Shown piece by piece: positions 2,601-38,254 of a stretch of 38,482 bases of DNA. Position 1 is the stretch's first letter, and every line of letters begins with the position of its first letter. The position numbers were made by a program, and so were the translations under genes. The stretch is from a virus: positions 1-38,482 of the IMG/VR virus record IMGVR_UViG_3300032163_000050, one strand, 5' to 3'. The notes below the pieces were generated by a model. It saw only the letters and a list, made by a program, of their open reading frames with translations, searched no databases and was not told the DNA's origin.

Positions 2601-2610
2601 GATTACCCCC

Positions 2611-9861: not shown

Positions 9862-10401
9862 ATGAGCAAAATGAATATTGTTAGGACTGGTGTCGCACTC
9901 CCAGCAGATGGGGAATTAGCGTTGGTTAGGGGGTTTTTATTTGGATGCTTTAATGGTTTTCTTGATTCGGATAAAAAATCTTGGAATGGATTTTGGCGCC
10001 GGTTAATAAATTTAGAGCCAGGTGAAATTGCCCAAGCAGAAATGTCTATTCCGAGAAATTATAAATTTCATAAAAAATTCTTTGGTTTGCTCGATGTAGG
10101 TTTCGAGGCTTGGGAGCCAAACCGCGTGCGCAAAAGCTACAAGGGCCGGGCGATGGAAAAGAACCGAGAGCAGTTCCGCGAGGACGTCACCATTTTGGCC
10201 GGATTCTACGAGCAGACATTCGACCTGAAAGGCCGGATGGTGATCAGGGCGCAGTCAATCAGTTTTGCCAAGATGGACGATGCGGAGTTTGAAGGGCTGT
10301 ACTCGGCGGTGATTGATGTGCTGCTAAGAGAGGTTTGTACGACCTATAAAGGACGTGCTGAACTAGATGCGGTTGTGGAACGGGTGATTAATTTTGCATG
10401 A
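9862..10401 (+). CDS. DUF1367 family protein (nin-region type)
   Basis: 179 residues from ATG 9862, which is preceded by AAGGAT; a start seven codons earlier has no ribosome site. Family features are RNYKFHKKFFGLLDVGFEAW, NREQFREDVTILAGFYEQTF and IRAQSISFAKMDDAEFEGLY followed by SAVIDVLLREV, which match DUF1367 proteins from lambdoid nin-like regions. The function of the family is not established. It is followed by the methyltransferase gene with a 4-base overlap. Confidence 0.8.
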   Translation: MSKMNIVRTGVALPADGELALVRGFLFGCFNGFLDSDKKSWNGFWRRLINLEPGEIAQAEMSIPRNYKFHKKFFGLLDVGFEAWEPNRVRKSYKGRAMEKNREQFREDVTILAGFYEQTFDLKGRMVIRAQSISFAKMDDAEFEGLYSAVIDVLLREVCTTYKGRAELDAVVERVINFA

Positions 10402-11120
10402 TTACGATTGGCAATGCAACTCTGCACAACATGGACTGCATAGAATACATGCGCGGTCTGCCTGACAAGATATTTGATCTGGCAATTGTCGACCCGCCGT
10501 ATGGAATCAATGCGCCAAACATAAGCATGGGGCAAAACAAAAATCGCGCTGATGGCTGGGTGCGCGGCGATAGCACAGCTGTGAAAATTAAAAAAGGCCG
10601 TCTTAATTCAGGGGGGGGTAAGTTGAAAGACAGAATGCTCAATACCTCCAGCATCGGCTGGGATGATGCCGTGCCGAGCCCTGAATATTTTGATGAATTA
10701 TTCAGGGTATCAAAAAACCAAATTATTTTTGGTGGAAATTATTTTGACCTTCCTCCGACACGGTGCGTGGTTTGTTGGGATAAGTGCCAGCCATGGGAAA
10801 ACTTCTCGCAGTGGGAAATGGCATGGACTTCATTTGACAAACCTGCAGCATTGTTCTCTTACTCAAATACTGGCAGTGCAAATTCTGAAACTAAGATCCA
10901 TCCAACACAAAAGCCAATAAAATTGTATGAGTGGTTATTGAATAAGTATGCAAAGCCTGGACAAAAGATATTGGACACGCACCTAGGCAGCGGAAGCAAT
11001 GCGATTGCCTGTAATGATATGGGGTTTGAATTAAGCGCTTGCGAAATTAACAAGGATTATTTTGATAATGCATGTAGTCGCATAGAGCGGGCAACAGCAC
11101 AGCAAAGGATGTTCGCATGA
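10398..11120 (+). CDS. DNA adenine/cytosine-N4 methyltransferase (beta-class)
   Basis: 240 residues. Catalytic motif IV DPPYG is at residues 32-36 and the AdoMet motif near residues 190-200 (ILDTHLGSGSNAIA), preceded by HPTQKP. This order (catalytic motif first, AdoMet motif last) is that of beta-class enzymes. The target-recognition part lies between. An eight-G run at 10611-10618, in the Gly-Gly-Gly stretch after NS, could slip and switch the gene off. The enzyme probably protects phage DNA from host restriction. No partner nuclease is seen. Confidence 0.88.
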   Translation: MITIGNATLHNMDCIEYMRGLPDKIFDLAIVDPPYGINAPNISMGQNKNRADGWVRGDSTAVKIKKGRLNSGGGKLKDRMLNTSSIGWDDAVPSPEYFDELFRVSKNQIIFGGNYFDLPPTRCVVCWDKCQPWENFSQWEMAWTSFDKPAALFSYSNTGSANSETKIHPTQKPIKLYEWLLNKYAKPGQKILDTHLGSGSNAIACNDMGFELSACEINKDYFDNACSRIERATAQQRMFA

Positions 11121-16905: not shown

Positions 16906-18457
16906 TGCCGCATTTACGCGCCTGAAAGAAGAATACGGCGAAAAACTTGCTGATCCGATGTGGAGAATATGCTCGGGAGCAATTTACAAAATCATCATAA
17001 AGGGCGAAAAAGCCGATGATGAGTTGGTGATTCCGTTCATCCCAAATAAGGCGCAGATGCGCTTTTTGAAGCGAATGCACCACAGAAATTTGATTTTGAA
17101 AGCTAGGCAGCGCGGGTTCACGACACTGATAGCCATTGCGTGGCTGGACCATGCCTTGTGGGTTGGGAATAGTCGGTGCGGTATCGTGGCGCATGACCGA
17201 GAGGCCGCCGAGGTGATATTCCGCGATAAAGTGAAGTTCGCCTATGAAAATATGCCGGAACTATTGAGGCTTGCATTCCCGCTTGGGAAAGATAGCGCCA
17301 GTGAATTGCTGTTTGCTCACAATAATAGCTCTGTTCGTGTGGCTACATCTATGCGCTCAGGAACGATACACCGGCTGCATATATCTGAGTTTGGCAAGAT
17401 ATGTGCCAAATCTCCAGATAAGGCAAAGGAAGTAGTCACTGGGTCACTCCCGGCGGTTCCGACAACTGGCGTGACAGTAATTGAATCGACGGCAGAGGGT
17501 GACGAGGGCGAATTTTATGATATGACGCGCCGGGCTATGGAAATGCAAGAGCAAGGTTTGAAGCTGTCGTCGCGCGATTGGCGGTTTCACTTTTTTGCAT
17601 GGTGGGATGACAGCCCAGAGTATGAGTTGGATGCCGGAATCGTGGCTGTAACGCCACAAGACCATGATTATTTCAATGCCATTGAGATTGAAATGGAGTG
17701 CGAGCTAAGTCAAAGGCAACGTGCATGGTACGTTGCTACACGAGAAGCGGATTTTTCTGGTGTGCGCGAAAGAATGTGGCAGGAATATCCTTCCACACCA
17801 AGCGAGGCGTTTAAGAGGTCTGTTGAGGGATGCTATTACGCGCAGCAGATGGTAGCGGTTCGCACACAAGGGCGTATTTTGCGGATACCAGAGACGCAAG
17901 CCCCAGTAGATACATTCTGGGACATTGGTAATTCTGATGGTTGTGGTATTTGGTTTATGCAGCAAGTTGGGCTTGAGGATAGATTCTTGAAATATGCTGA
18001 AGGCCACGGCCTGACGCTCAAGGACTATATGAAAATACTACAAGACACGGGTTATTTGTTTGGTAAACACTTTTTGCCGCATGACGCAGGTAATAAGCCA
18101 TTAAGCGATACAAATAAGTCTGTGATAGAGCAGCTTGAGACGCTTGGGCTGAAGAATATTGTACGAGTACCGCGTATTAGTGATCTTGGCGCAGGAATTC
18201 AGCTCACCAGAGCGCATTTTCCTTCTGCATGGTTTGATCAAGATGGTTGTGAGCTCGGGATAAGAAGGCTCAATAACTACAAAAAGAAATGGGACTCAAG
18301 ACAGGGAAGATTTAATGAGTCAACCCCAGAAAAGAATGATGGGAATAGTGAGGGTGCTGATGCTTTTAGGCAGTGGGCCCAGGCTAAGGACTCCGGGTTA
18401 ATTGGACGTAAAGCAGATAAAGGATTGGACTATGGTGCAAGATCAGATTGGTTCTAA
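16892..18457 (+). CDS. Large terminase subunit (TerL), packaging motor
   Basis: 521 residues. The N-terminal ATPase has a Walker A-like loop near residues 70-78 (KARQRGFTT) and Walker B-like LHISEFG. The C-terminal nuclease domain carries its acidic residues in FWDIGNSDGCG, LPHDAG and EGADAFRQ. It powers DNA translocation into the prohead and cuts genome ends. ATG 16892 is used; 16886 is also possible (two codons longer), and neither has a strong ribosome site. The gene overlaps terS, and the portal start lies inside its end. Confidence 0.9.
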   Translation: MSKTDAAFTRLKEEYGEKLADPMWRICSGAIYKIIIKGEKADDELVIPFIPNKAQMRFLKRMHHRNLILKARQRGFTTLIAIAWLDHALWVGNSRCGIVAHDREAAEVIFRDKVKFAYENMPELLRLAFPLGKDSASELLFAHNNSSVRVATSMRSGTIHRLHISEFGKICAKSPDKAKEVVTGSLPAVPTTGVTVIESTAEGDEGEFYDMTRRAMEMQEQGLKLSSRDWRFHFFAWWDDSPEYELDAGIVAVTPQDHDYFNAIEIEMECELSQRQRAWYVATREADFSGVRERMWQEYPSTPSEAFKRSVEGCYYAQQMVAVRTQGRILRIPETQAPVDTFWDIGNSDGCGIWFMQQVGLEDRFLKYAEGHGLTLKDYMKILQDTGYLFGKHFLPHDAGNKPLSDTNKSVIEQLETLGLKNIVRVPRISDLGAGIQLTRAHFPSAWFDQDGCELGIRRLNNYKKKWDSRQGRFNESTPEKNDGNSEGADAFRQWAQAKDSGLIGRKADKGLDYGARSDWF

Positions 18458-20687
18458 TGCTGAAATAGACTCAGTATATGCACCCAAGGACGGACTGAGC
18501 CTGCAAAAGCTGGAGGAAATGCTATCTGATATTCGTTGGCAGCCCAAGTGGCGCGAAGAAGCAAGCAAGGCTGTTGATTATTACGATGGTCACCAACTGA
18601 CTCAAGAGAGGCTTGCGCGTATGGATCAGTTGGGTATTCCACCCCTGATTACGAATTTGGTCGCACCGGCAATCAATACCATGCTGGGAATGGAAGCTCG
18701 CACCCGCACTGATTGGCGCGTGACCCAGGAGAATGAAGTCCAGGAAGTCCCTGAAGAAATGATGGATGCGATGAACGCCAAGCTTAATGAGGCCGAGCGT
18801 GAATCGCGTGCTGATCGTGCTATCTCTGATGGGTATGCGTCGCAAGTTAAAAGCGGGATAGGCTGGGTTGAGGTATCAAGAGCCTCTGACATCATGGCGT
18901 ATCCGTACCGTGTGTCATCCGTGCACCGTGATGAAATATGGTGGGATTGGCGCGCAAAAAATCCTGACTTGTCTGATGCGCGCTATCTAATCCGCAAGCG
19001 CGCTTTTGATCAGGACGTACTGATGGCGATGATGCCTGAGCATGCTGACCTGCTTAAATGGGCGATTGAGGATAAATTCAGGACATGGCAGTGGGACACC
19101 AAGCAGAACATTGATACCCAGCTGGCCTATGCTGCGCATCTTGAGCGAATTACCAACATTGATGCGCTGGAATGGCGCAATGCTGATCGCAGACGTGCGA
19201 CATTGTTTGAAGTTTGGTATCGGGTATGGCGGCGCGGCATGGTGTTGAAGCTGCCAAATGGCAAGGTTATTCCATTCAAAAAAGAGGATCAGCGGCACAT
19301 TCAGGCAGTGCAGGCTGGTTTTATCAAGCCGTTTGAAGCCACTTATGCAGAGACTCGACAGGCTATTTACATGGGCTGTCACCGTTTATACGACATGATT
19401 ACACCGTATGCACATCGGCACTTCCCTTATGTGCCATTTTGGGGTTACCGGGAAGACTTGAACGGCGTGCCCTATGGTCTGATACGTTCAATGATGTCAC
19501 CGCAGGATGTGATTAATAGCTCAGACTCAAAGATGCACTGGATGCTGAATTCACGCAGGCTGCGCGCTGATTCTGATGCGATCGATCAGCGATATAACAC
19601 ATGGCAGAACGTGCGCGAAAACCTTGCCCGCGCAGATTCGATTGTATTGCTGGATCCGAGCAAGCCTCAAGCACGCTTCATTGAAGATAACGATAACGGA
19701 CTAACGTCTGAACAGTTTCAACGCCGCATGCAGGCTGCATCCGATATTAATACCGCTGGAGGTGTATACGGTGCGGGCCAAGCCCAGAATTCCGGCGTGA
19801 CTTCTGGTGTTGGATTGAATACTTTGATAGACCAAGGTAACACTGCTACCGCTGAGGTCAATGATAACTATCAGTATGCTCGTAGACAGGTTGGAGAACT
19901 GCTATTCTCATTGGTGCGCGAGGACTTGATGCACGATGAAATTCAAGTGTTGATCAAGAAGGAAGGTAAAAAGCAGCTGATTACCCTGAACCAGCGCATG
20001 CCAGATGGGAAGATTGCAAACAATGTAGCCAGCGTCCCGACAAAAGTGGTGCTGGAAGATGTGCCAAGTACGCCTGCCTTCCGTGCCCAGCAGTTAACCT
20101 TAATGACCGAACTTACCAAGTCGCTACCGCCGCAGTTCCAAGCGGCGATTATTGATATGGTTATCGGAATGACCGATGCGCCGCAGAAAGACAAGGTTGT
20201 TGAACGTCTGCGCAAGGTTGCCGGTATTGCACCGGATATGACACCGGAAGAGGAGCAACAGCAGTCAGATCAGGCCGCGCAGAAACAGCAAGCTGTTGAA
20301 GCCGCATTGATGGAGAAACAGGCTGCAGAAACAGCGCTGATCAAGGCCAAGGTCGCACAGACTGATTCCGTCACCCAGAAAACAGATGCCGATAAGCTGA
20401 TGAAGATGGTTGAGGCTATTTTTGTGGCACTGCAGGCCGGTCAGGTTGTGGCCAGCGTGCCGCAAGTCGCTGGCGTGGCTGATGAGATATTGAAGGGTGC
20501 CGGATATAAAGCCGCTGAAGGTGGAGAAAATCCGCAGATCCCGCAGGCTCAACCCGGAATTATGCCGCAGGAAGGGATGCCAGCCATGCAGGGAAATGGT
20601 GGAATGGCTCCCGAACATCCACAGCTGGCAGCAGGTGCGATGAATGGAATGGAGACAGCACGCTCAGATAGCGTGATGCAGCAGTAA
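18432..20687 (+). CDS. P22-like portal protein
   Basis: 751 residues from ATG 18432 (AAGGA upstream; a TTG ten codons earlier is less likely). It forms the dodecameric channel of the head vertex. The N-terminal DWRVTQEN, YPYRVSSVHRDEIWWDW and PYVPFWGYREDLNGVPYG (conserved P22-type region) and the long C-terminal helical barrel (EEEQQQSDQAAQKQQAV then EAALMEKQAAETALIKAKVA) are as in P22 gp1. The length is close to that of P22 gp1. The start overlaps the terminase end by 26 bases. Confidence 0.88.
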   Translation: MVQDQIGSNAEIDSVYAPKDGLSLQKLEEMLSDIRWQPKWREEASKAVDYYDGHQLTQERLARMDQLGIPPLITNLVAPAINTMLGMEARTRTDWRVTQENEVQEVPEEMMDAMNAKLNEAERESRADRAISDGYASQVKSGIGWVEVSRASDIMAYPYRVSSVHRDEIWWDWRAKNPDLSDARYLIRKRAFDQDVLMAMMPEHADLLKWAIEDKFRTWQWDTKQNIDTQLAYAAHLERITNIDALEWRNADRRRATLFEVWYRVWRRGMVLKLPNGKVIPFKKEDQRHIQAVQAGFIKPFEATYAETRQAIYMGCHRLYDMITPYAHRHFPYVPFWGYREDLNGVPYGLIRSMMSPQDVINSSDSKMHWMLNSRRLRADSDAIDQRYNTWQNVRENLARADSIVLLDPSKPQARFIEDNDNGLTSEQFQRRMQAASDINTAGGVYGAGQAQNSGVTSGVGLNTLIDQGNTATAEVNDNYQYARRQVGELLFSLVREDLMHDEIQVLIKKEGKKQLITLNQRMPDGKIANNVASVPTKVVLEDVPSTPAFRAQQLTLMTELTKSLPPQFQAAIIDMVIGMTDAPQKDKVVERLRKVAGIAPDMTPEEEQQQSDQAAQKQQAVEAALMEKQAAETALIKAKVAQTDSVTQKTDADKLMKMVEAIFVALQAGQVVASVPQVAGVADEILKGAGYKAAEGGENPQIPQAQPGIMPQEGMPAMQGNGGMAPEHPQLAAGAMNGMETARSDSVMQQ

Positions 20688-21835: not shown

Positions 21836-23113
21836 ATGGCTCAGACCACAGTACCAGCAGGAAGTCCGCTATCGCGGAAAGTGTTTGGTGCGGCACTATT
21901 TGCAAAAGTAGTCGTTGCCTCAAGCTTTATTAAAGCCCTTACGGGTGATGCACCCAAACAGTCAGACGCAGAGGCCAAGCTTAAAGGTCAAACCGTGCCT
22001 GATATGCCGGTTGTCCGCGTAACTGACTTATCCAAGTCAGCCGGTGACACCGTTTCAGTAGATGCTTTCGACACCAACAACGGTAAGCCTTTAATGGGCG
22101 ACCGTAATGCCGAAGGCCGTGGACAGAAGTTGTCCAGTTCCAGCCAGGACATCACCATCAACAACACGACTTACGTTGTGGACGTTGGCGGCAAAATGTC
22201 GCAACAGCGTACCGTGCATAGTCTGCGCGGCCTCGCCATGGCGCAATTGGCCGGTTACTTCCCACGCCTGAACTCGCAGCAAGCTATGGTTCACTTGGCT
22301 GGCGGTCGCGGTTCTCAGACTGGTAAGGACTGGATTGTGCCACTCGCAGCTGATGCAGATTTTGCCGATATTATGATCAACCCGGTCAAAGCTCCGTCAT
22401 ACAACCGTCACTTGGTTGTAAACGGCACGTCTTTCACTGAGGGCGGTCTGCAACTCGGCTCTATCGTATCGACCGACTTATGGACGCTGGCGCACGTTGA
22501 TGATTTGGCGGTTCGTCTGTCTGATCATAATATGGGCTTGCAGCCTGTGAAACTGGGTGACGATCCTGCGGCTGATGATGATCCCATCAAAGGCGTGTTG
22601 TTCTTGTCCGAGCGTCAGTGGTCACAAATCAAGACCAGTTCCTCTTATCAGACCGCTGTGCAAACAGCATGGGCACGCAAGAGCTACGGCACGAAACATC
22701 CGCTGTTCTCCGGTGAGCCTATCATGTGGAACGGTATCTTGATCCGCAAGCTGCCAAAGTTCGCAATCCGCATGGCAATCAGTGAGAACACCAACATCAT
22801 CACCGCAGCTAACCGCTACACCGGGACTGAATCTGTCCAGGCTGTAAACGGTTCTCTGTCTGCCGGTTATGCGGTTGAGCGTTCTTTGCTGTTGGGTGCT
22901 CAGGCACTGGCTTCCGTGTTCGGTCGCAATCAAAGTTCCGAGACTGGCTTTAGCTGGTTGGAGAATATGTACAACTTTGATCGAAACATGGAAGTAGCGG
23001 GCGAAGCGATGGGCGGTATGGCCAAGCTGCGCTTCAACTTCGATGATGGTGCTGGCAATCTGGAACCAACAGACCACGGCGTATTCGCTATCGACTCAGC
23101 TGTAAAATTATAA
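21836..23113 (+). CDS. Major capsid protein (DUF4043/N4 gp56-type)
   Basis: 425 residues with AAGGAG before the ATG. N-terminal GSPLSRKVFGAALFAKVVV then KLKGQTV, DTVSVDAFDTNNGKPLMGD, and DVGGKMSQQRTVHSLRGLA are features of the N4 gp56/DUF4043 family, an HK97-fold capsid. The middle and end have SYNRHLVVNG, FLSERQWSQIK and AQALASVFGRN. It lies between scaffold and cement genes as in BPP-1-type phages. Strong codon regularity suggests high expression. Confidence 0.88.
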   Translation: MAQTTVPAGSPLSRKVFGAALFAKVVVASSFIKALTGDAPKQSDAEAKLKGQTVPDMPVVRVTDLSKSAGDTVSVDAFDTNNGKPLMGDRNAEGRGQKLSSSSQDITINNTTYVVDVGGKMSQQRTVHSLRGLAMAQLAGYFPRLNSQQAMVHLAGGRGSQTGKDWIVPLAADADFADIMINPVKAPSYNRHLVVNGTSFTEGGLQLGSIVSTDLWTLAHVDDLAVRLSDHNMGLQPVKLGDDPAADDDPIKGVLFLSERQWSQIKTSSSYQTAVQTAWARKSYGTKHPLFSGEPIMWNGILIRKLPKFAIRMAISENTNIITAANRYTGTESVQAVNGSLSAGYAVERSLLLGAQALASVFGRNQSSETGFSWLENMYNFDRNMEVAGEAMGGMAKLRFNFDDGAGNLEPTDHGVFAIDSAVKL

Positions 23114-27493: not shown

Positions 27494-29503
27494 ATGTCCG
27501 CGATCAAGCTAAGTACATTCTCAGGCATTGCGCCAAAAATTGAAAATCGCATGCTGCCGGAAGGTGTCGGGCAAATCTCTGATAACTGCCGTCTATTATC
27601 AGGTGGTATCCGCGCATTCTCTGACAAGCTGAAGCTGGCGACAAACCTGCTAAAAACTGGTAGTTACATCAAGACTATCTTCCGTATGACCAATGGACAA
27701 TATGACTACTGGTTAAGCTGGGTGACCGATGTTAATTGCGTGCGCGGGCAGATTGCAGGTGATACCTTGCAGCGCATTTACTGGACTGGCGAGAATGAGC
27801 CGCGCATGTCTGACTTTATCAAGGCAACCAACAATGCCGGAAGCGGTGTTATGCCTGCTGCCTGTTTTGTGTTGGGTGTCCCTGCGCCATTGGTCGCGCC
27901 AACAGTCACCCCGTCTGGGGGCACAGGTGCAGCGGCTACCCGTGCCTATGTAGAAACCTTTGTTACAGCATATGGTGAAGAGGGTTCCCCTAGTCCTGTC
28001 ATGCTGGTCACCGGCAAGATAGATACAACAACATGGGCGCTGACAGCGCTTAATGCTGCACCGATCAATACCTCTTCAATCTCAGCAGTCACGATAGCCA
28101 GTGGGATTGCGACCATCACGACCCCATCAACCAAGTATTTGCGCGTGGGTGAAGAACTCACAATATCCGGCGTGGTTGGATTAACTGACCTGAATGGCAG
28201 CAGAATCATTACTGAGGTCACCGATGCAACACATTTCAAGGTTGCGCTTACCTCTGCACAATCCTACACTAGCGGCGGCACATGGACGCGCGCGGCCCCA
28301 CACAATATCACCGGCATGAAGCGGAGAATTTACCGAACACTGAGCGGCAAGTATTATTTTGTGGCTGAGATGGATGTCGCCACTACAACATATAACGATA
28401 CACTGGCAGATACTGCGCTGGGTGAAGAAATCCCTTCAGTCGGCTGGAGTATGCCGCCGACAAATATAAAGGGCATGATCCCTCTGCCGAATGGATTTAA
28501 CGCAGCCTTTGCAGGAAATGAGATTTTCTTTTCAGAGCCGTGGTATCCGCATGCTTGGCCGGATAAGTACCGTCTGTCATGCAACTTTGATGTGGTTGCA
28601 TTGGGCGCGTTCGGTTCGAGTATTGTTGCTGGTACAAAAGGCGTGCCCTATGTAATCAATGGCGCTCACCCTGGCAGCATGTCGATGGAAAAAACAGAGG
28701 TATCGGAACCATGTACCTCAAAAAACAGCATGGTTGACATTGGTTCTGGCGTGCTTTATTCGTCACCCAACGGCATGGTGTTTATTGGGGTTGGTGGGGT
28801 AGATATTTCAACCAAAAATAATTACACCCGCGACGAATGGGCACTGCTAAAACCAGCAACATTACGCTGTAATTTTCACAACGGCATGGTATTTGGCTGG
28901 CATGATGTCAATGCAGAGTTACATACTGGTTTTACATTTAACATGCAGACTGGCGCATTTTCCTCAACCTCGCTGCCTGTTACTGCAAGCTTTGTTGATC
29001 CAGAAACAAATAGCATGTATGTCGTTAAGGATGGCGCAATCTACCAATGGGATGCACACCCCTACAATGATTTAACCTTTGACTGGAAATCCAAGGTGTT
29101 TTATCAGGGTCGCCCGATCAATTTTGGTTATGTCAAGATAGATGCGATGCTAGACGGTGTGGCAGAAATTAATGCTGCAATAGCCGCCGACAAGGCATTC
29201 AATGAAGCCGTATTGGCGGCAGGACTTACCTATGGTGAATTTGACCACAACATGCTGGATGAGTACATGCTGGATGGTAGCGTACTTGTTGGAGGTTCGG
29301 TTGCTGAATACAGTATCCAATTCTTACGCTTTATTGCTTATGCCAATGGTGTAGAAAAATTTACCAAGACCATTGACAGTAACAAGTCATTTCCCTTGCC
29401 GAGCGGGTTCAAGGCGAACAGATGGGAATTCAGGCTATCTGGAAATGTCCCTGTGTATAGCGCGACCATTGCAGAGACTGCTACTGAATTGAGGTCTACA
29501 TGA
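27494..29503 (+). CDS. Large tail structural protein, probably nozzle-like, 669 aa
   Basis: AGGGAA before the ATG. Starts with a short segment typical of podophage tail proteins (SAIKLSTFSGIAPKIENRML, GGIRAFSDKLKLA), then many beta-rich repeats (YDYWLSWVTDVNCVRG, TFVTAYGEEGSPSP, IYRTLSGKYYFVAEMD, PNGMVFIGVGGVD). The beta-propeller-like rhythm and the size fit a tail hub or nozzle protein such as P22 gp10-type. Exact homology not shown. Confidence 0.65.
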   Translation: MSAIKLSTFSGIAPKIENRMLPEGVGQISDNCRLLSGGIRAFSDKLKLATNLLKTGSYIKTIFRMTNGQYDYWLSWVTDVNCVRGQIAGDTLQRIYWTGENEPRMSDFIKATNNAGSGVMPAACFVLGVPAPLVAPTVTPSGGTGAAATRAYVETFVTAYGEEGSPSPVMLVTGKIDTTTWALTALNAAPINTSSISAVTIASGIATITTPSTKYLRVGEELTISGVVGLTDLNGSRIITEVTDATHFKVALTSAQSYTSGGTWTRAAPHNITGMKRRIYRTLSGKYYFVAEMDVATTTYNDTLADTALGEEIPSVGWSMPPTNIKGMIPLPNGFNAAFAGNEIFFSEPWYPHAWPDKYRLSCNFDVVALGAFGSSIVAGTKGVPYVINGAHPGSMSMEKTEVSEPCTSKNSMVDIGSGVLYSSPNGMVFIGVGGVDISTKNNYTRDEWALLKPATLRCNFHNGMVFGWHDVNAELHTGFTFNMQTGAFSSTSLPVTASFVDPETNSMYVVKDGAIYQWDAHPYNDLTFDWKSKVFYQGRPINFGYVKIDAMLDGVAEINAAIAADKAFNEAVLAAGLTYGEFDHNMLDEYMLDGSVLVGGSVAEYSIQFLRFIAYANGVEKFTKTIDSNKSFPLPSGFKANRWEFRLSGNVPVYSATIAETATELRST

Positions 29504-29691: not shown

Positions 29692-29769
29692 TTTAGCCGG
29701 TGATTCTGGTAGAAGTATTAACAGAACACTGGCTTTTTTACGCCTGTTATGGCGAGAAGGAAGGGCGAT

Positions 29770-30930
29770 ATGGGTAATGTTTTAGATAATACTATTGGCG
29801 GGATTGCTGGTCGTGCAGACGCATGGTTTGGCACGGACGCACCGCCAGAAAGCGACCCAGGGATCAAGCTTGCAGCAGATCGTGCCGGTCAAATCGGCAA
29901 AGAGCAATTCGGCTTCAACAAAGGCGAGTATGACGCAAATAAAGCGCGCCTTGCTGGAATAGACAAGACCAATCAGGGCATAGTTGATTCTCAGGTTGGC
30001 ATGAGCAAGGACTATCAAGACCGCTCAAACAGCGAGTGGGACAGATTCAAGACGCAGTATCAGCCCGTGCAGGATCGCATGGTCAACGATGCGATGAATA
30101 TCGACTCTGCTGCGAATCAAGAGAAAGCGGCGGCGGAAGCTGGTGCGCAGGTCAAGAATAGTTTTGCCAATACACAAGATCAAAAAGCAAGGCAAATGGC
30201 CAGTATGGGCATTAATCCCAACTCTGGTGCGTCGATTGATTCAATGAATACCAATGCAATGGCACAGGCCGCAGGAGAAGCGGGGGCCATGAATAATGCC
30301 CGCGATGTTGTGAAAGACAAAGGCATTGCCATGCGTTCCAATGTGGCCAACTTTGGTCAGGGCGTAGCAAATCAATCCATGGCACTAGGCAATCAGGCCG
30401 TACAAACCGGCAATTCTGCAGTAGGCGTAAACAATGTCGGCTTCGATAACTCACTCAAGAATACTGGGGTGATGAATGTTGGATTTAACGCGGATGCTTC
30501 AGGAAATAAAACTGGCGCAGATATTCTAAATCAGGACTATGCAAACAAGATGCAAGGATATGCTGCCGCGCAACAAGGCAAAGCCGGGGTTGCTGGCGGA
30601 ATTGGTGGAATTATTGGCGGTATTATTAAATCCTCCAAGAAGCTGAAGGAAGGTAAGAAGCCAGTCAATGATGCAGAAACCCTGAAGAAGCTGAAAGATA
30701 CACCAGTCGGCAACTGGAAGTACAAGAAAGGCGTAGCTGATGAAGGCCGTCATACCGGAGCTTATGCCGAGGATATGCACAAGAACTTTGGCAATGATGC
30801 GGCACCGGGCGGTAAAGCAATCGACATCATTTCGGCCATCGGTATCAGCATGTCCGCCATCAAGGGCTTGTCGAAGCAGGTTGATAAGCTGTCCATGAAG
30901 GTTGATCAGTTGGCAGGAAGGGGAGCATAA
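29770..30930 (+). CDS. Virion protein with C-terminal S74-type chaperone domain, 386 aa
   Basis: ATG 29770 has GGAAGG at proper distance; ATG 29749 has none. Residues 1-280 are helical and Gly/Ala/Asn-rich (GQIGKEQFGFNKGEYDANKA), typical of internal head or ejection proteins, and carry hydrophobic GIGGIIGGII. Residues about 287-386 match the S74 intramolecular-chaperone domain: SSKKLKEGKKPV, VGNWKYKKGVADEGRHTGAY and IDIISAIGISMSAIKGLSKQ. The Ser near 288-289 would be the self-cleavage site. Confidence 0.75.
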   Translation: MGNVLDNTIGGIAGRADAWFGTDAPPESDPGIKLAADRAGQIGKEQFGFNKGEYDANKARLAGIDKTNQGIVDSQVGMSKDYQDRSNSEWDRFKTQYQPVQDRMVNDAMNIDSAANQEKAAAEAGAQVKNSFANTQDQKARQMASMGINPNSGASIDSMNTNAMAQAAGEAGAMNNARDVVKDKGIAMRSNVANFGQGVANQSMALGNQAVQTGNSAVGVNNVGFDNSLKNTGVMNVGFNADASGNKTGADILNQDYANKMQGYAAAQQGKAGVAGGIGGIIGGIIKSSKKLKEGKKPVNDAETLKKLKDTPVGNWKYKKGVADEGRHTGAYAEDMHKNFGNDAAPGGKAIDIISAIGISMSAIKGLSKQVDKLSMKVDQLAGRGA

Positions 30931-30932
30931 AC

Positions 30933-32267
30933 ATGGGACAAGCAGCGGCATTTCTTAATGGGCTACTCAGTGGATATGAGCGCACCAGCGCGATCCAGCG
31001 CGAAAACCGCAATGATGAGCGGCAGGCAAAGCAGGATAAGGATGAAGACGAGCGCAGGGCAAAGCAGAAAGCCATGGAAACTGAAATGGCGGCCAATAAA
31101 CCTACTCAGGACATTGATGCAGATCATACGGAAGCTATGTCCTTGTATGAAAAAAACCAAGCCAGCATGGCAAAAGAAAACGAAGCACGGCGCGCGGTCA
31201 ATAATTCACAAGAGAGTGCCGTAAACCCAGCCGCTGCCAATGGAATTTCTTTCGCGTCTGCGCCTTCCCCGCAATTGCAGCAGCCGGATGGATTCTCGGC
31301 ACCAAAGCCGAATAGCCCAATAAGTAATGCTGTAAAGATGGGTATCCCATTGCAAGAAAAGCCAGCCGAGGCACCACCAGAAAAACGTCAACCCACCATG
31401 GCTGATGCGCTGAATTACCAAATGCGCAATCTGCAAATCAAGAGCAAGTACGGCCAGGACGTTGGTAAAGACTTGATAGAACTCACCGCGCAGCGCAAGA
31501 AGATGGATGATGAAGGGTTGACCCATGCTTATGCCTTATTACATCGAGGTGATTATCAGGATGCAGAAAAAGCCTTTAACAGTGTCGGTAAAAATAGAGG
31601 CTGGAAGCTGGAAGGTGCCCCAATTGAAAAAACCGTAAAGATTGACGGGCAGGAAATGCCGACAAAAATAGCGACTTTCATTCTCCCAAATGGAGAGAAG
31701 CGAGTGATCGATACTGCCCATGATATGTCTGCGATGATCAACTTCGATAATCAGATCAAGTATGGTCAGGAAGGCATGAAAGCTGAAGCGGCTATGATCA
31801 CGGCGAATGCGCATAAGACAGCATCAGAAAACAAAGAAGCTAAAGACAAAATGCCTGAGTTAAGTAAGCTGGTTGAGAATGGACTTAAAACATTAGCAGT
31901 AAAAAACAACATCAAGAAGAATGAGCTTGGACAGATTGTAAGTGGCAAGCCTGAAGATGTTGCAGCTTATACACGGGAAGCTGCAGAGCTTGAACAATAT
32001 GTCACGAAGGAAAACAAGTTGCCTCACGCAGTAAATTTAATGATTCAAGAACGTGATGAAGCAGAAACAAGGCAAAAATTTGCTAACAAAAACAGGGTTA
32101 ATTCTGCGTCAGCAGGTACAGCCACACCGCCTGCACCTCAGCCAGGTCAATTATCTATTCCTAGAGGGATGGTGGTTGGTGCGCCAACAAAGCAGGCTGA
32201 TGGGCAATACTCTGCGAAAGGGAAAACCGTAACTATAGCTGGCGGAAAAATTACTGAGATTAAATAA
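30933..32267 (+). CDS. Putative internal virion (ejection) protein, 444 aa
   Basis: Strongly charged helical N-terminal third (AIQRENRNDERQAKQDKDED), a Pro/Ala-rich linker, central helices (NYQMRNLQIKSKYGQDVGKD) and a C-terminal beta-like end (GQYSAKGKTVTIAGGKITEI). It lies between the S74 protein and the giant protein and has no enzyme motif. These features and the position suit an internal protein delivered with DNA. The stop overlaps the next start (TAATG). Confidence 0.62.
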   Translation: MGQAAAFLNGLLSGYERTSAIQRENRNDERQAKQDKDEDERRAKQKAMETEMAANKPTQDIDADHTEAMSLYEKNQASMAKENEARRAVNNSQESAVNPAAANGISFASAPSPQLQQPDGFSAPKPNSPISNAVKMGIPLQEKPAEAPPEKRQPTMADALNYQMRNLQIKSKYGQDVGKDLIELTAQRKKMDDEGLTHAYALLHRGDYQDAEKAFNSVGKNRGWKLEGAPIEKTVKIDGQEMPTKIATFILPNGEKRVIDTAHDMSAMINFDNQIKYGQEGMKAEAAMITANAHKTASENKEAKDKMPELSKLVENGLKTLAVKNNIKKNELGQIVSGKPEDVAAYTREAAELEQYVTKENKLPHAVNLMIQERDEAETRQKFANKNRVNSASAGTATPPAPQPGQLSIPRGMVVGAPTKQADGQYSAKGKTVTIAGGKITEIK

Positions 32268-35200
32268 TGGCAAAATTACCCGAACTAGATTTAAGTGAGT
32301 TTGGAGGCGCGCCAACTGGCAAGCTTCCAGAATTGGACTTGTCTGAATTTGAAACAAAAAGCGCAGGCAACTGGGACGAAGTAAAAGCCACGCCCGAATA
32401 CAAGGCTGCTGGCAGTGATGCGCGCGAGGTTATGCGCGATAACTTCTTCGTATCCAATGTCATGCCCAGTACAAAAACAGAGGACTTGCAGGCTGTCAGA
32501 AATAAGTTTGATAGTGATACCAAGCCGACAATAGCAGGGCGTGCTATCGATGCAGTGGGTAATGGCATTAAGTTTGCCAAAGAAGTCTATGATGACGCAC
32601 AGAAGCGCGAAGCTGACAGGATCAAACAGGAAGGTTACGCTCGCGCAAACAAAGTTAAGTGGGCAACAGACTCGGGGCGCATTGGTAGTGTTGACCCAAA
32701 AGAAGAACAACGCAAGATTGATTCTATAGAGGCGAGAAAGAAATATGAATCAAGCCCGGTTGAGGCTGTTTCTGAAATAGTAAAACAAGGGTACGGTGGT
32801 TTAACCATCGATGCGCCTGCAGCGGTTAATAAAGCAGGGCAGGCATTCTCACCCGATGGTAGTGCAGCCGAAGATTTCTTCAAACAAGGCGCAAATTACT
32901 GGGAAAGTAACAAGGCAGATTTCATACCGAACACACGTAACAAAGGTGTAATTACCAATGCCTTTGCCAGTGGTGCACGCGCAATACCTTTATCTGGTGC
33001 GGCTATGGCTGCAGCTGGAACGTCATTACTGACAAGCTCAGTCGCGGCACCAATTGCCACAGCCGCTGGAATTGTTGCATTGTTTGGCGGATCACAATTT
33101 ACAGATACTTATGAAAAAGGTGTCGCTGCTGGACTGCCAAAAGATCAAGCATTCAAAGCCGGATTACTCACAGGTGGAATAGAAGGACTTGGTGAAACGC
33201 TAGGGGACTTCGCTGGCGGTAAATTCCTGTCTGGACTTGGCCATGCATTTGCACAAAAACTTGGAACCAAAGAAGCTCTGACAGCTGCAACCAGCCCACG
33301 ATGGGCTGCGAAGTTTGGCAAAGATTTTCTTGAGAATATGGCTGTCCAGGCTGGCACAGAGTATGGGCAAGGCTTCGGTGAAACGGCGGTCGAGAATCGT
33401 TACGGAATATCAAACGAAAGCCCAATTGATCAGGCCAACCAAGGCGCGATGACTGCGGTAGCAATGTCATTCCTGATGGGAGGCGGTGCGATACATGGCC
33501 ATCGCCAACAAGCCGAAGTAAGAAAGTTGGCAGGTGATTTACTGGAAGATCCAGCTGCACCCATTGAACAGCGCGCCAAGGCTGCAGAATTTGTGCGCAA
33601 GGAAATGGAGCAGCATATCGGAGCGGAAGCCGCGAAGCAGTGGCACGAAGGTATGGTTGCTACCATGGGATTCGACAAGGTTCAGAACCCGACCCCAGAA
33701 AATGTACCGCAAGGTGCTATGCAAGCCAGCGACATACTGGGCACCCCGGAGCAAGCCCCCGACTTGTATCCCGATGCAAAGCCCGGATCACTATCCAGCG
33801 CAGCCAACATCGCCGCAAAAAATGGCATCACCCCAGTACAAAACACAGGCGATATAGCTGCCGCAGACTTTTTAGGCACACCCGAGGTAAACAATGCTCA
33901 ACTTCAACCAGGTACTACGAACGAGCAATCCAATAACAGCGCAGCCGGAACCAATACCAACTTACTTTTACCCGTCAATGGAATTGGCCGAGCAGATGCA
34001 GCTGCCGGAAATGGAAATACTGCTGTGGGTGGCGGGCTGGCTACCGAGCAATCGAATGAACATAGTAGCACAACGGGCATTGATGCGGGACTATCTACAG
34101 CACAGCAAGCCAATTCAGTAGGCATACCCGGACACCCTTCCGAGGTTGTGCTGCCTGACAATACTACTTTGCCGGCACAATGGCAGGTTGTCGATGCAGA
34201 TCAAGTCAAGGCCACGCTGAAAGAGGGCAAGAATCAGCCGCGTGACCGTAGTCGTGCTGCTGCCAATGTCCAGGTTCAGGGCATTGCCAATAACCCGAAT
34301 TACACCCTGTTGCGCGATTCTCCGGTAATGGATTTCGGTTCTCCTACAATCTCGCATGATGGCGCTATCGTGGGCGGCAATGGCCGTTTTGAAGGTATCA
34401 GTCGTGCTTATGATCAAGGCTCTGCCACAGATTACCGCGCAAAGTTAATGGCCGATGCTGCCAGTAAAGGGATCGATCCTGACAGTATCGCAGCCATGAA
34501 GAAGCCCGTTCTGGTGCGTCGTATCACCCAGCCTTTCGATACTCGCGCCCTGGCTGTCGCGTCCAACTCGGGCGGCAGCCTGCAATACTCGGCGCTTGAG
34601 CAAGCCAAGATTGACGGCGACCGCATGCAGGGTATCGGTGACATCGAAGTAAATGATGTGGGCGATGTATCGCTGACTGGCGATAATATGGCGAATGTAC
34701 GCCGGGCACTGGCTGGGTACACTGCTGCTGAAATGGGTTCGCTGACTGACAAGGATGGGCAGCTGTCACAGGAAGGTGTGCGCCGTATCAAGAACGCCCT
34801 GCTGTATAAAGCCTATGGCAATAGCTCTGTACTATCGCGTATCGTTGAATCGGCTGACCCGGAACTAAAGAATGTCATGGGTGCGCTGGTACGTGCCGCG
34901 AGTACCGTTGCCGGTGTCCGGGCAGATATGGCTGATGGGCACAAGCCAGCCAGCGAGGATATTGTCGCTGACCTGCTTTCCGCGGTCGAGCAGCTGGTCA
35001 AGGTTAAGGCCGAAGGGATATCGGTCGAGCAACATCAAGCACAGATGGATGTGTTTGGACAGGACCACTCCGAGGTATCGGCCTCATTCCTGCGCTTCCT
35101 GAATGACAATATCCGTTCCCAGAAACGCATGGCGACATTCATTCAATCGTATTATGATAGCTTGGCACGTGAAGATAATCATACCGGCAGCATGTTTGAC

Positions 35201-37636
35201 ACTGCGCCGACGACCAAACAGGAAAGGGTAAGCCATGCAATCCAAGAAGCCACAGCCGGCACCGAAGCAGAAAGACCCCATCAACAAGCTGCTAACGAGG
35301 TTGGACAACAACCCGAAAATGCGAGCAAGGGTCCAGAAAGCGATGGAGGCAGCACTCAAAGTCCCAGCGTAGATGAAGCGGCAAAGGCAAAGGCCGATGC
35401 CGATATCCATGAAGCACTGGGCGACCTTGGCGCAATCATGCGCGATGTTGCCGGTGTGCAACGCCTCACCCCCGAAGAAACTCAAAAACTATTACCTGTA
35501 CTGGTTCGCCTATTCGATGCCGCTTTCCGCAAGGGATATTACGATGTAAAGGACGCGATCAAGTTTGTCCGTGGCCTGCTGGCCGAGAATGATGCTACCA
35601 AGAAGTTTGCCCAGTTCATCCCCAAAGAGTTAATGGAAAGTGCGGCCGCATCTGCCGCCAAAGCCATGCCTGCTGGATTCTTTGATAATCAGGGGATGTT
35701 TGCGCAGGATGTACCGAAGGCAGAGAGTAATCAGGTAGAGCGCCGTAACGAGTCAGCCCAAGAACGGCGCACGCGCTATAACATGATGAGCCGCGAACAG
35801 CTTATTGCTGATTTGGATCGTGCTCATGAGCGTGAACGTAGGTCGCATGAGCGTGAACGCACCAGCTACTTGACCGGCTTACCAAACAGAGTCGCGTTTG
35901 ACGAATCAGCCCCTATGGCAGTAACAGCATCTGCTGATATTGACGGCATGAAAACCGTCAATGATACGCTCGGGCACGCGGCTGGCGATAGCCTGATCAA
36001 GGCCAAAGCTGACGCATTGCGCGCGGCGGTGCTTGATAACCCCGGCGTAAAGGTCTACCATCAAAGCGGCGATGAGTTCATCGCCCAGGCCAATACGGTT
36101 GAAGAGATTGACCGGGCAATGAAGCAGGCGCAAAAAATCCTGTTTGAAAAAGGATTTGAGTACAAGGACAAGGATGGCAACATCCAAACCAAGAAAGGTG
36201 TAGGGTTCAGCTATGGAACAGGATCAACATACGCGGAAGCAGACAGCCGCCTCGAAGCAGACAAGAAAGCCAGAAAGGCCGCTGGACTCCGCACAGGAGA
36301 AAGAGATACAGCAGTACGTCAAGCAGAAGGGACTGGAACGGGAAAAGGCAATGCAGGGAATGACCAAAGCCCAGCAGAAGCAGTATCTAATCACGGAACG
36401 GATGAAGCTGCCAGCGTAGCACCTGTACTTTCCAGCTATACCAATGCCGAAGTATTAAAGCGCGAAGCTGCCGCAAAGGCAGCGGAAGAAGCCGCGAACA
36501 AAGAAGAATTAACTGCCAAAGCAACGCAAGGCGCAAAGGACAAGGCTGATCTTGACGCACGCAAGAAAGCCTATGCAGAAAATCCTGATAACTTCCAGTT
36601 TGGCGAAAGCAGCAAGGATTCTGTTAAGCCGATGGGCGACTTGTTTAATCAGGGCAACAGTGCCGCACCCATCACCGTCGAGAAGCACGCCGACTTAAAA
36701 CAAGCTGAAAAGCAGGTCAATACCAACCCCACCGATGGACAGAAAGAAGCCGGGAACTATGCCAAAGGGCATATTGACTGGAACGGCCTCGACATCACCA
36801 TTGAAAACCCCGCAGGTAGCGAGCGCTCCGGCACCGATTCGGATGGCAAGAAGTGGTCCGTCACCATGCCTGCGACTTACGGTTACATCAAGCGTACCGA
36901 AGGCGCTGACGGGGATCACGTCGATGTTTATATCGGCGAGGATCATGCCAGCGATAAGGTTTATGTGATTGACCAGCAGGACATCAAGGCCGGAAAGTTT
37001 GATGAGCACAAGGTTATGCTGGGGTTCCCCCACTTGGGTGCGGCGGTAAAGGCCTATAAGGCTGGCTTCTCTGATGGCAAGGGCGCGCAGCGCATGGGCG
37101 CTATTGCCAGTATGTCGCTTGATCAGTTTAAGACATGGCTGGCTGATGGTGATACGACCAAGCCTGCCGCCAAGTACACACCTCCTGCAGCTGAGAAGCA
37201 GGGCGGCTCACTCGCTGATGCGCTGGAAAAGTACGAGGGCTCTGGCGAGATTGCAACCATTGGCAATTTAGTCAATGAAGTTCAGCGATTGATTGATGAG
37301 GATATCGCACCAGATTCTCTACAGAATGCCGTTGATACCTACCGCGATGAACTGGATTATAGCAATAGCCTCAAGGGCCGTGGCGATATGGATAGCGCAG
37401 AAGAGGCGTTAATCTCGGCAATCACGTCTGCAATAGAAGCAAAGCCAGCGGAAGCCGCCAAAATCCCGCCAGAACCCCGCCAAACTTCCGCCATCATATC
37501 GACGGCGGACATCCCCAAGTCGCTCAAGATACCCAACCCAGAAACCGGAGAAGGCCAATACAGTGCACGCGAAGCGATGGATGCAGCCGACAAACAAGTT
37601 GAAAAATTGGAAGCGCTTAAGAGGTGCATCGGATGA
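32267..37636 (+). CDS. Giant polyvalent protein with ParB/DdrB-like, GGDEF and pyrophosphatase-like domains, 1789 aa
   Basis: Domains in order: two copies of KLPELDLSEF (residues 3-12 and 19-28); a hydrophobic stretch near 237-285 (AAGTSLLTSSVAAPIATAAG); a linker; a DdrB/ParB-like domain about 620-930 (NPNYTLLRDSPVMDFGSPTI, GGNGRFEGISRAYD, PVLVRRITQPFDTRALAVAS); a helical domain about 1040-1130; a GGDEF domain about 1190-1300 with TGLPNR, metal-site Asp1224 (ADIDGMKTVNDTLGH) and SGDEF at 1267-1271; and an inorganic-pyrophosphatase-like domain about 1480-1630 (GLDITIENPAGSERSGTDSD, TYGYIKRTEGADGDHVDVYI). Such multi-enzyme phage proteins are thought to enter the host with DNA. The 3' end overlaps the next gene. 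Confidence 0.85.
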   Translation: MAKLPELDLSEFGGAPTGKLPELDLSEFETKSAGNWDEVKATPEYKAAGSDAREVMRDNFFVSNVMPSTKTEDLQAVRNKFDSDTKPTIAGRAIDAVGNGIKFAKEVYDDAQKREADRIKQEGYARANKVKWATDSGRIGSVDPKEEQRKIDSIEARKKYESSPVEAVSEIVKQGYGGLTIDAPAAVNKAGQAFSPDGSAAEDFFKQGANYWESNKADFIPNTRNKGVITNAFASGARAIPLSGAAMAAAGTSLLTSSVAAPIATAAGIVALFGGSQFTDTYEKGVAAGLPKDQAFKAGLLTGGIEGLGETLGDFAGGKFLSGLGHAFAQKLGTKEALTAATSPRWAAKFGKDFLENMAVQAGTEYGQGFGETAVENRYGISNESPIDQANQGAMTAVAMSFLMGGGAIHGHRQQAEVRKLAGDLLEDPAAPIEQRAKAAEFVRKEMEQHIGAEAAKQWHEGMVATMGFDKVQNPTPENVPQGAMQASDILGTPEQAPDLYPDAKPGSLSSAANIAAKNGITPVQNTGDIAAADFLGTPEVNNAQLQPGTTNEQSNNSAAGTNTNLLLPVNGIGRADAAAGNGNTAVGGGLATEQSNEHSSTTGIDAGLSTAQQANSVGIPGHPSEVVLPDNTTLPAQWQVVDADQVKATLKEGKNQPRDRSRAAANVQVQGIANNPNYTLLRDSPVMDFGSPTISHDGAIVGGNGRFEGISRAYDQGSATDYRAKLMADAASKGIDPDSIAAMKKPVLVRRITQPFDTRALAVASNSGGSLQYSALEQAKIDGDRMQGIGDIEVNDVGDVSLTGDNMANVRRALAGYTAAEMGSLTDKDGQLSQEGVRRIKNALLYKAYGNSSVLSRIVESADPELKNVMGALVRAASTVAGVRADMADGHKPASEDIVADLLSAVEQLVKVKAEGISVEQHQAQMDVFGQDHSEVSASFLRFLNDNIRSQKRMATFIQSYYDSLAREDNHTGSMFDTAPTTKQERVSHAIQEATAGTEAERPHQQAANEVGQQPENASKGPESDGGSTQSPSVDEAAKAKADADIHEALGDLGAIMRDVAGVQRLTPEETQKLLPVLVRLFDAAFRKGYYDVKDAIKFVRGLLAENDATKKFAQFIPKELMESAAASAAKAMPAGFFDNQGMFAQDVPKAESNQVERRNESAQERRTRYNMMSREQLIADLDRAHERERRSHERERTSYLTGLPNRVAFDESAPMAVTASADIDGMKTVNDTLGHAAGDSLIKAKADALRAAVLDNPGVKVYHQSGDEFIAQANTVEEIDRAMKQAQKILFEKGFEYKDKDGNIQTKKGVGFSYGTGSTYAEADSRLEADKKARKAAGLRTGERDTAVRQAEGTGTGKGNAGNDQSPAEAVSNHGTDEAASVAPVLSSYTNAEVLKREAAAKAAEEAANKEELTAKATQGAKDKADLDARKKAYAENPDNFQFGESSKDSVKPMGDLFNQGNSAAPITVEKHADLKQAEKQVNTNPTDGQKEAGNYAKGHIDWNGLDITIENPAGSERSGTDSDGKKWSVTMPATYGYIKRTEGADGDHVDVYIGEDHASDKVYVIDQQDIKAGKFDEHKVMLGFPHLGAAVKAYKAGFSDGKGAQRMGAIASMSLDQFKTWLADGDTTKPAAKYTPPAAEKQGGSLADALEKYEGSGEIATIGNLVNEVQRLIDEDIAPDSLQNAVDTYRDELDYSNSLKGRGDMDSAEEALISAITSAIEAKPAEAAKIPPEPRQTSAIISTADIPKSLKIPNPETGEGQYSAREAMDAADKQVEKLEALKRCIG
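33894..34121 (+). CDS. Possible nested ORF in the giant gene (+1 frame), 75 aa
   Basis: An ATG preceded by GAGGTAAACA opens a 75-codon frame in the +1 frame over a low-complexity linker of the main protein. The frame encodes a protein-like sequence (QLPEMEILLWVAGWLPSN, ALMRDYLQHSKPIQ). The +1 frame of this gene is often open by chance, so support is modest. Confidence 0.25.
   Translation: MLNFNQVLRTSNPITAQPEPIPTYFYPSMELAEQMQLPEMEILLWVAGWLPSNRMNIVAQRALMRDYLQHSKPIQ
35235..35372 (+). CDS. Possible nested ORF in the giant gene (+1 frame), 45 aa
   Basis: ATG with AAAGGG in front; the 45-residue product is MQSKKPQPAPKQKDPINK then LLTRLDNNPKMRARVQKAME and a short end. It is basic and helical and lies where the main frame encodes a Gly/Ser/Gln linker. 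Confidence 0.28.
   Translation: MQSKKPQPAPKQKDPINKLLTRLDNNPKMRARVQKAMEAALKVPA
36213..36419 (+). CDS. Possible nested ORF in the giant gene (+1 frame), 68 aa
   Basis: A 68-codon +1 frame just after the GGDEF domain encodes a highly charged helix (EKEIQQYVKQKGLEREKAMQ, GMTKAQQKQYLITERMKLPA). The ribosome site is weak. The main frame here is a Gly/Thr/Asn-rich linker. Confidence 0.25.
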   Translation: MEQDQHTRKQTAASKQTRKPERPLDSAQEKEIQQYVKQKGLEREKAMQGMTKAQQKQYLITERMKLPA

Positions 37637-37899
37637 GCCAGGTATTCAAGAAGCTGAAAGATCAAACTCCTAAGAGCGTAGGGCAGGAGGTTGGTGAAGT
37701 TTTATCAGTGAGCATGGCTGAGATTAAAGCATCCAACGAACAGATGAATGCAATGCTGGCAAAGACAATAGCTGACGCACTTGCTCGGCTTGAACCAAAA
37801 GCCGATGGCTCAACAAAAAAAGATGTTAAAACGTGGACTTTTCGAGTAGAACGGAATGATAAAGGTTTAATGACGCAGGTAATTGCAACCGCAACATAA
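37633..37899 (+). CDS. Small structural/accessory protein, 88 aa
   Basis: ATG 37633 overlaps the giant gene stop (ATGA) and has GAGG at eight bases; a GTG three codons earlier is also in frame. The N-terminal 60 residues are helical (GQEVGEVLSVSMAEIKASNE, QMNAMLAKTIADALARLEPK), then a short beta hairpin (DVKTWTFRVERNDKGLMT). Similar small proteins occur in many phage late operons; no function known. Confidence 0.65.
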   Translation: MSQVFKKLKDQTPKSVGQEVGEVLSVSMAEIKASNEQMNAMLAKTIADALARLEPKADGSTKKDVKTWTFRVERNDKGLMTQVIATAT

Positions 37900-37912
37900 A
37901 GGAAAATCACAA

Positions 37913-38254
37913 ATGAAACCAGAAAATAAAATTGTCGTCCCGCGCCGCAAAGGCGAAGCATTCAACACCATCGCCATCAACACCGCAGGTCTGCGCCCAA
38001 ACATGTGGGTGGTTAAGGATGGAGTGGTCGGTATCCTCACCGGCTGCTCGCTCGACGGCATTGCAGAAGTCACCGTGACCAAGCCGGACGGCACCAACAA
38101 AATGATGCTCGACGAGCACGACAAAGCCGTGCCTGCCACCTTCTCGGCACGTGTGGAAGACCTGCAACAAGCGACGCACGATGAGATTCCCGAAGCGCGC
38201 CGCCCGGATGAAGACGTTTCCCTTGCGCTTGGCTACATGAAAGGTGGTGTGTAA
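37913..38254 (+). CDS. Hypothetical virion-region protein, 113 aa
   Basis: AAGGAAAATC precedes ATG 37913; an earlier in-frame ATG at 37883 lies inside the previous gene. The protein is beta-rich (NKIVVPRRKGEAFNTIAINT, GLRPNMWVVKDGVVGILTGC, GIAEVTVTKPDGTNKMML) and has an acidic helical end (EIPEARRPDEDVSLALGY). It resembles small SH3-like or barrel proteins of phage structural operons; function unknown. It overlaps the next gene (TAATG). Confidence 0.65.
   Translation: MKPENKIVVPRRKGEAFNTIAINTAGLRPNMWVVKDGVVGILTGCSLDGIAEVTVTKPDGTNKMMLDEHDKAVPATFSARVEDLQQATHDEIPEARRPDEDVSLALGYMKGGV

Follow-up and report, generated by a model that had tools for sequence, protein, structure and literature searches.

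A GGDEF Domain with an Invariant Active Site and No I-Site in a Giant Phage Polyvalent Protein: A Possible Injected Diguanylate Cyclase

Introduction

Can a phage bring into its new host, together with its DNA, an enzyme that makes a signalling nucleotide? This question is raised by a giant open reading frame (ORF) in the virus record IMGVR_UViG_3300032163_000050, whose 38,482 bases were analyzed as a whole and are called the window here. The ORF (32267..37636, + strand) encodes a protein of 1789 amino acids (aa), named P0001, in which an original prediction, made from the letters of the DNA, had seen a diguanylate cyclase-like GGDEF domain that might be ejected with the DNA. We investigated the fold of this domain, the conservation of its active site, its inhibitory site (I-site), its domain neighbours and its gene context. 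In our reading, the domain is a diguanylate cyclase that is free of feedback inhibition and enters the cell with the DNA. We give this whole reading a probability of about 0.55, a joint figure that allows for dependence between its steps.

Iyer et al. have described, in the available part of their 2017 article (PMC5512222), polyvalent proteins that, like the window protein, are giant and multidomain, draw on DdrB-ParB, InPase, ART and GGDEF domains, and are predicted to be injected. They called GGDEF "not very widespread" in these proteins, gave a prophage of Acetonema longum as an example, and proposed that injected GGDEF domains could act in cyclic-nucleotide signalling, in interference with host nucleotide responses, or against rivals. 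The injected GGDEF domain was thus already predicted in 2017, and the window holds a further member of the predicted kind. In our set, by comparison, 72 of 79 viral loci with the domain encode giants, and statistics on conservation, the I-site and domain neighbours were not found in that part of the article. What the present analysis adds is how large the family is, that its active site is invariant, that the I-site has been lost almost completely, and that pyrophosphatase is the commonest neighbour.

The GGDEF Domain and Its Predicted Fold

Pfam matched the window protein to GGDEF with an E-value of 3.2e-10 (40.5 bits; the curated cut-off is 23.8), which rules out a chance match of motifs, and a search of the window's own record gave an E-value of 2.6e-13. 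The domain occupies residues 1199-1346 (35861..36304, + strand), as delimited by Pfam PF00990 (1202-1336), the family profile, the structure model and the fold search. On the same strand it comprises LTGLPNR (residues 1202-1208, 35870-35890), the metal and substrate motif DIDGMK (1224-1229, 35936-35953), GHAAGD (1236-1241, 35972-35989), the signature SGDEF (1267-1271, 36065-36079) and the C-terminal lysine motif ADxxLxxxKxxR (ADSRLEADKKAR, 36239-36274). The first four lie in one open frame with the right spacing, as had been predicted. The coordinates given originally stop a little too early: the domain extends to about residue 1346 (36304), past the C-terminal lysine motif. The metal Asp, the guanine-site Asn and Asp, the G[DE]EF acid pair and the C-terminal Lys are all present in the window domain.

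The GGDEF segment was modelled by AlphaFold as a monomer, with 72 phage sequences as alignment input (pLDDT 95.2, pTM 0.86). Foldseek against the PDB gave 94 matches at E ≤ 0.001, and the best 50 of the 94 were GGDEF proteins, nearly all of them diguanylate cyclases. VIA-align superposed the model on the diguanylate cyclase 3ign with Z 17.6 (137 residues, 1.7 Å) and on DgcR (6zxb) with Z 17.1 (161 residues, 2.5 Å), the latter over model residues 1-178 and with the helix before the core included. This predicted helix (residues 1176-1197, 35792..35857, + strand; helix 12-33 of the modelled segment) could be a dimer stalk. Comparison of a model with known GGDEF structures was the check proposed originally, and its outcome agrees with the prediction; the predicted GTP and metal site is intact. 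It is virtually certain that the window domain has the GGDEF fold.

Conservation and Lineage of the Phage GGDEF Domains

Viral contigs were scanned with four seed sequences and with the patterns DxDxxK and GDEF, and 79 viral loci with a GGDEF domain were obtained. The domain lies inside ORFs of at least 637 aa in 72 loci (some of these ORFs end at the locus edge) and in stand-alone ORFs of 156-260 aa in the other seven. All 72 members of the phage alignment matched PF00990 at E ≤ 0.01. We counted conservation over 71 distinct aligned rows, the window included, after exact duplicates had been removed; L162, a fragment, was left out of the alignment.

Seven columns are invariant (71/71), and all seven fall in active-site motifs, at a mean identity of 36% over the 72-row alignment. 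They are the first Asp of DxD (metal; DIDGMK in the window), the Asn and Asp of the ND pair, the Gly of GHxxGD, and the Gly, Asp and Glu of GDEF (SGDEF in the window). The Lys of DxDxxK is kept in 68/71 rows, the Asp of GHxxGD in 65/71 and the C-terminal Lys in 69/71. The guanine-reading residues, kept in 71/71 and 65/71 rows, we take to correspond to N335 and D344 of PleD.

The scan patterns covered two of the invariant regions and therefore biased the conservation, and the rows were split by pattern as a control. Loci caught by the DxDxxK pattern alone keep GDE[FY] in 25/25 cases; in those caught only by GDEF, both the metal Asp and the Asn are present in 25/25, and the Lys has been lost in 4/25. 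Because rows caught by a single pattern keep the other motif, the active-site conservation is not a product of the search alone. A degenerate GGDEF domain was rejected, GDE being invariant in 71/71 rows. The domain probably binds nucleotide and is catalytic.

The window domain does not have the RxxD I-site upstream of GGDEF that marks a feedback-inhibited cyclase. This had been noticed before, and it extends to nearly the whole phage set: RxxD was found in 1/72 phage sequences versus 31/73 cellular sequences, the latter being those with a readable motif out of 80 fetched among the matches listed and picked by the pattern DxD[SG]LKx[VI]ND, so that they share the phage-scan pattern and are an unfair sample of all GGDEF domains. 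The segment from NR to DxD is also shorter in the phage set (median of 19 versus 23.5 residues in the cellular one). In a quick unrooted tree, from which L180 and L212 (motif absent) and two short cellular rows were left out, one branch split the 74 phage domains from the 76 cellular ones (SH-aLRT 85); L153 forms a very long branch on the phage side and its placement is unsure. On this sequence comparison, the phage GGDEF domains are likely to be a phage-only lineage. Kinship with mCpol or the CRISPR polymerases (PF18182) was rejected: the window is unmatched, and just 1/72 phage members matches, at E 0.0091.

The Neighbouring Pyrophosphatase Domain

On the + strand the giant ORF also encodes a DdrB-like ParB domain (residues 631-753, 34157..34525; PF18763, E 3.5e-28) and an inorganic pyrophosphatase domain (residues 1486-1639, 36722..37183; PF18823, E 1.8e-54 over 1491-1625, with the extent taken from a local profile). 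Pfam found no sensor or receiver domain in the protein, and its PHROG matches are large phage proteins. With ddrB-ParB, GGDEF and InPase, which have unrelated activities, in 1789 aa, and with its gene among virion genes, the protein is of the polyvalent type. The pyrophosphatase domain begins 140 aa past the GGDEF domain and contains the acidic motif DGDHVD (36908-36925), which is consistent with the family I pyrophosphatase signature.

Pyrophosphatase was the commonest Pfam family flanking GGDEF (12 of 125 flanking segments), with ART second (5). We examined 16 distinct proteins with both domains, the near-copy L100 being dropped. The two domains are at most 200 aa apart in 13 of the 16 (median gap 69), and their order is balanced, with pyrophosphatase before GGDEF in eight proteins and after it in eight. 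A cyclase gives off two pyrophosphates per molecule of cyclic di-GMP (c-di-GMP) made. Because pyrophosphate is released by the cyclase, coupling between the two domains would be chemically sensible.

We also considered whether GGDEF is a usual part of pyrophosphatase polyvalents, and this was rejected: only 1/80 of the records behind L003-L082 has a GGDEF match, which lies in the record of L032 in a separate frame of 719 aa. Besides this, the search matched the record of L002 itself.

Gene Context and Packaging in the Virion

The late half of the window contains terminase, portal, major head, tail fibre and internal virion genes, and then the giant ORF. On the + strand we located the genes for the portal protein (18402..20687; phrog_156, E 6e-143), the major head protein (21836..23113; phrog_334, E 2.7e-95), an internal virion protein with Bcep22-like relatives (27494..29503; phrog_511, E 1.7e-140) and a virion structural protein (29749..30930; phrog_8003, E 5.7e-82). 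The gene that adjoins the giant ORF upstream (30933..32267, + strand) shares one base of its stop with the start of the giant ORF, and its protein had no family match in the Pfam and PHROG profile searches. Sequence identity to Bcep22-like, F116-like and related phages is 33-43% for the portal and internal virion proteins. From TerL to the giant gene, the order is that of BcepIL02, where the giant is gp70, a Bcep22-like arrangement; no near-DNA match to the late half of the window was found among known phages. Pfam, PHROG and gene order support the original reading in part, in that the domain belongs to a polyvalent protein encoded after ejection-type genes.

Two studies, as far as their available text goes, are informative on packaging. 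In the Bcep22-like phage JC1, whose late-gene order is that of the window, 51 unique peptides of the giant gp69 were detected in purified virions (PMC9144972). The head of P1 contains DdrB and DarB, the latter in about 40 copies per virion, and a reporter is brought into the capsid by the N-terminal 30 residues of DarB (PMC9024508). By analogy with these phages, it is probable that the window giant is packed in the virion.

We examined 92 ORFs upstream of GGDEF giants, out of 159, after limits on size and number had been applied. Matches included endolysin phrog_10475 and phrog_1044 (seven each), virion structural protein (four), DNA ejection protein (four) and internal virion protein (three). 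Such neighbours speak for packaging of the giants. The genes just before giants, which have ORFs such as L139 988-3234 and L121 4414-6003 among them, include a recurring endolysin family, perhaps of virion lysozymes.

Within its first 60 residues, the window protein has the motif KLPELDLSEF twice (32273..32302 and 32321..32350, + strand; self-repeat test, p 0.005). In this test self-similarity was compared with 200 shuffles, so that 0.005 is the floor. Among the N-termini of GGDEF giants, 21 of 61 distinct ones had a self-repeat at p ≤ 0.01, against 0, 2, 1 and 1 of 66 control segments taken from these proteins at offsets 120, 200, 300 and 400. The same threshold was reached in 11/69 pyrophosphatase polyvalents and in 4/260 other ORFs of at least 300 aa from the same loci, spurious frames included. 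Two or three near-copies of the motif lie in the N-terminal 60 residues, its sequence varies between phages, and its residues are mostly acidic and aromatic or large hydrophobic. Repeats were also found in L088, L090, L092, L093, L107, L111, L116, L130, L133, L134, L135 and others. By analogy with the P1 DarB N-terminus, the repeat is a candidate for a duplicated capsid-targeting (packaging) signal. N-terminal repeats are unmentioned in the available part of the 2017 article (PMC5512222).

Proposed Mechanism and Alternative Explanations

The proposed mechanism is as follows. The giant polyvalent protein would be packed in the head and would enter the new cell along with the DNA. Its GGDEF domain would be catalytically competent as a diguanylate cyclase and would belong to a phage-specific lineage from which the product-inhibition site has been lost. 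Two such domains may dimerise through the stalk helix and convert two GTP into c-di-GMP in the new cell, with synthesis unchecked by its own product, while the neighbouring pyrophosphatase may remove the released pyrophosphate and so pull the reaction forward. The resulting pulse of c-di-GMP could alter the host within minutes of entry, ahead of phage gene expression, with motility, surface state, superinfection or immunity as possible targets. Provided that the domain is active, c-di-GMP is probably its product, and we somewhat favour the newly infected cell as the main place of action.

Several observations weigh against this reading. In the window domain, Ser replaces the first Gly of GGDEF, and Gly-Met stands where the canonical domain has an aromatic pair. 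The position +4 from the C-terminal Lys, which we take to be that of the canonical phosphate-binding Arg in PleD, is Glu in 51/71 rows, and Arg is found at +3 in 63/71; the window has Arg at +3 and Lys at +4. No protein of the set has two GGDEF copies, so that a dimer is required, and the dimer itself is a prediction. The local pyrophosphatase profile was found in 17/73 GGDEF giants versus 3/27 ART-type polyvalent ORFs, which do not differ significantly (Fisher P 0.26, one duplicate dropped), and GGDEF was found in 0/76 other pyrophosphatase polyvalent ORFs and 0/27 ART polyvalent ORFs. The 13 adjacent pairs among 16 compare with 3.2 expected under uniform placement (P 0.0001) but with 7.9 (P 0.004) or 8.7 (P 0.016) under nulls that keep the usual domain positions; the closeness of the two domains is real, modestly above position preference. 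Finally, the likeness of JC1 gp69 to the window giant is one of gene position.

The alternative that survives best, though we consider it unlikely, is that an active cyclase is expressed in the producing cell or the lysogen and acts there, through late expression or host conversion, and is not delivered. It would suit the YuA-type relatives, whose GGDEF genes, of 153-157 aa, stand alone in mid-genome, away from the head genes; in the YuA record this gene is annotated with a "putative role in host cell conversion". Lysogens of Bordetella phage LK3 overproduce biofilm, and the GGDEF gene as the cause was suggested, without a test, by the authors in the available text (PMC8471281). The window domain, in contrast, is part of a giant ORF that follows internal virion genes, 72/79 loci being of the giant type, and the syntenic giant of JC1 was detected in virions (PMC9144972, available part).

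Still less likely is an active cyclase with another product, such as cyclic GMP-AMP (cGAMP), cyclic di-AMP (c-di-AMP) or a linear dinucleotide, that would serve as an antagonist or decoy against cyclic-nucleotide defence. The surroundings of the pocket do differ between this lineage and cellular GGDEF domains, with Leu or Met for Phe and His for Arg. The conserved guanine-reading residues favour GTP and c-di-GMP, and the near-absence of mCpol matches (1/72) also argues against such a product. In its favour, defence systems respond to cyclic dinucleotides, which keep Panoptes in check (PMC12657218, available part); interference with host nucleotide responses was already named by Iyer et al. (PMC5512222, available part).

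The weakest alternative, a non-catalytic GTP- or c-di-GMP-binding domain used as a sensor or structural module, draws on the non-canonical SGDEF, the displaced Arg and the fact that degenerate GGDEF domains often serve as sensors, and it is improbable, as such domains usually lose the signature that is kept here at low overall identity, and the I-site used by product-sensing GGDEF domains is missing in 71/72 phage sequences.

If delivery of an active cyclase is true, what would it mean? Phages remove or sponge cyclic nucleotides, and an injected synthase would be the reverse of this removal, acting at entry. The messenger pool is of the order of a thousand molecules. Tens of copies per particle, a figure suggested by the number of DarB molecules in a P1 virion (PMC9024508, available part), could plausibly shift this pool within minutes when product inhibition is missing, by order-of-magnitude reasoning. 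The missing I-site and the nearby pyrophosphatase yield sharp predictions, for which the 72-row alignment singles out residues. The subject is also relevant for phage therapy and ecology, because c-di-GMP governs motility and biofilm. A wider claim, that many unrelated-looking phages inject a feedback-free factory of phage-only GGDEF cyclase and adjoining pyrophosphatase which hits host signalling or cyclic-nucleotide immunity before expression, is tentative and rather doubtful at present, and a link to CBASS is speculation.

Relation to Known Systems and Other Genes in the Window

The cellular cyclases PleD, DgcR, DgcB, SadC and SiaD have the same fold and predicted active-site layout as the window domain. 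Unlike them, the window domain has no RxxD, no Pfam sensor or receiver partner, a shorter NR-DxD segment, and the Ser and Leu/Met motif variants.

YuA gp44 and its relatives in the Mesyanzhinovviridae (MP1412 and Bordetella CN1, CN2, FP1 and MW2) belong to the same domain set, with about 35% identity to the window domain. They share with it the motifs SGDEF/AGDEF and GFSxGTG...ADxxLxxDKxxR, but they are stand-alone proteins with no ejection genes adjoining and, in the aligned CN2 (152 aa) and YuA (156 aa), are about 20 residues shorter ahead of the last strand. Their mid-genome genes lie at 11938-12396 of L083 (Bordetella CN2) and 11926-12396 of L084 (Pseudomonas YuA). In the available part of a 2023 review, the phage entries are the YuA protein and one riboswitch (PMC10333796). 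No paper that measured the activity of a cyclase injected by a phage turned up in the literature searched, most subscription journals being outside the search.

The DarB-like giants of Bcep22-like phages (BcepIL02 gp70 and JC1 gp69) occupy the same late-operon place as the window giant, and that of JC1 is virion-associated (PMC9144972, available part). They differ in being much larger (4515 aa in JC1) and of the antirestriction methylase-helicase type.

Past the giant gene, a small ORF (37883-38254) has a match to AnmK below threshold (E 0.00053, 19.6 bits versus a cut-off of 24), probably by chance. Elsewhere in the window, genes for a RecE-like exonuclease, a RecT-like annealing protein and a DNA methyltransferase were found at 960-3546 (- strand) and 10398-11120.

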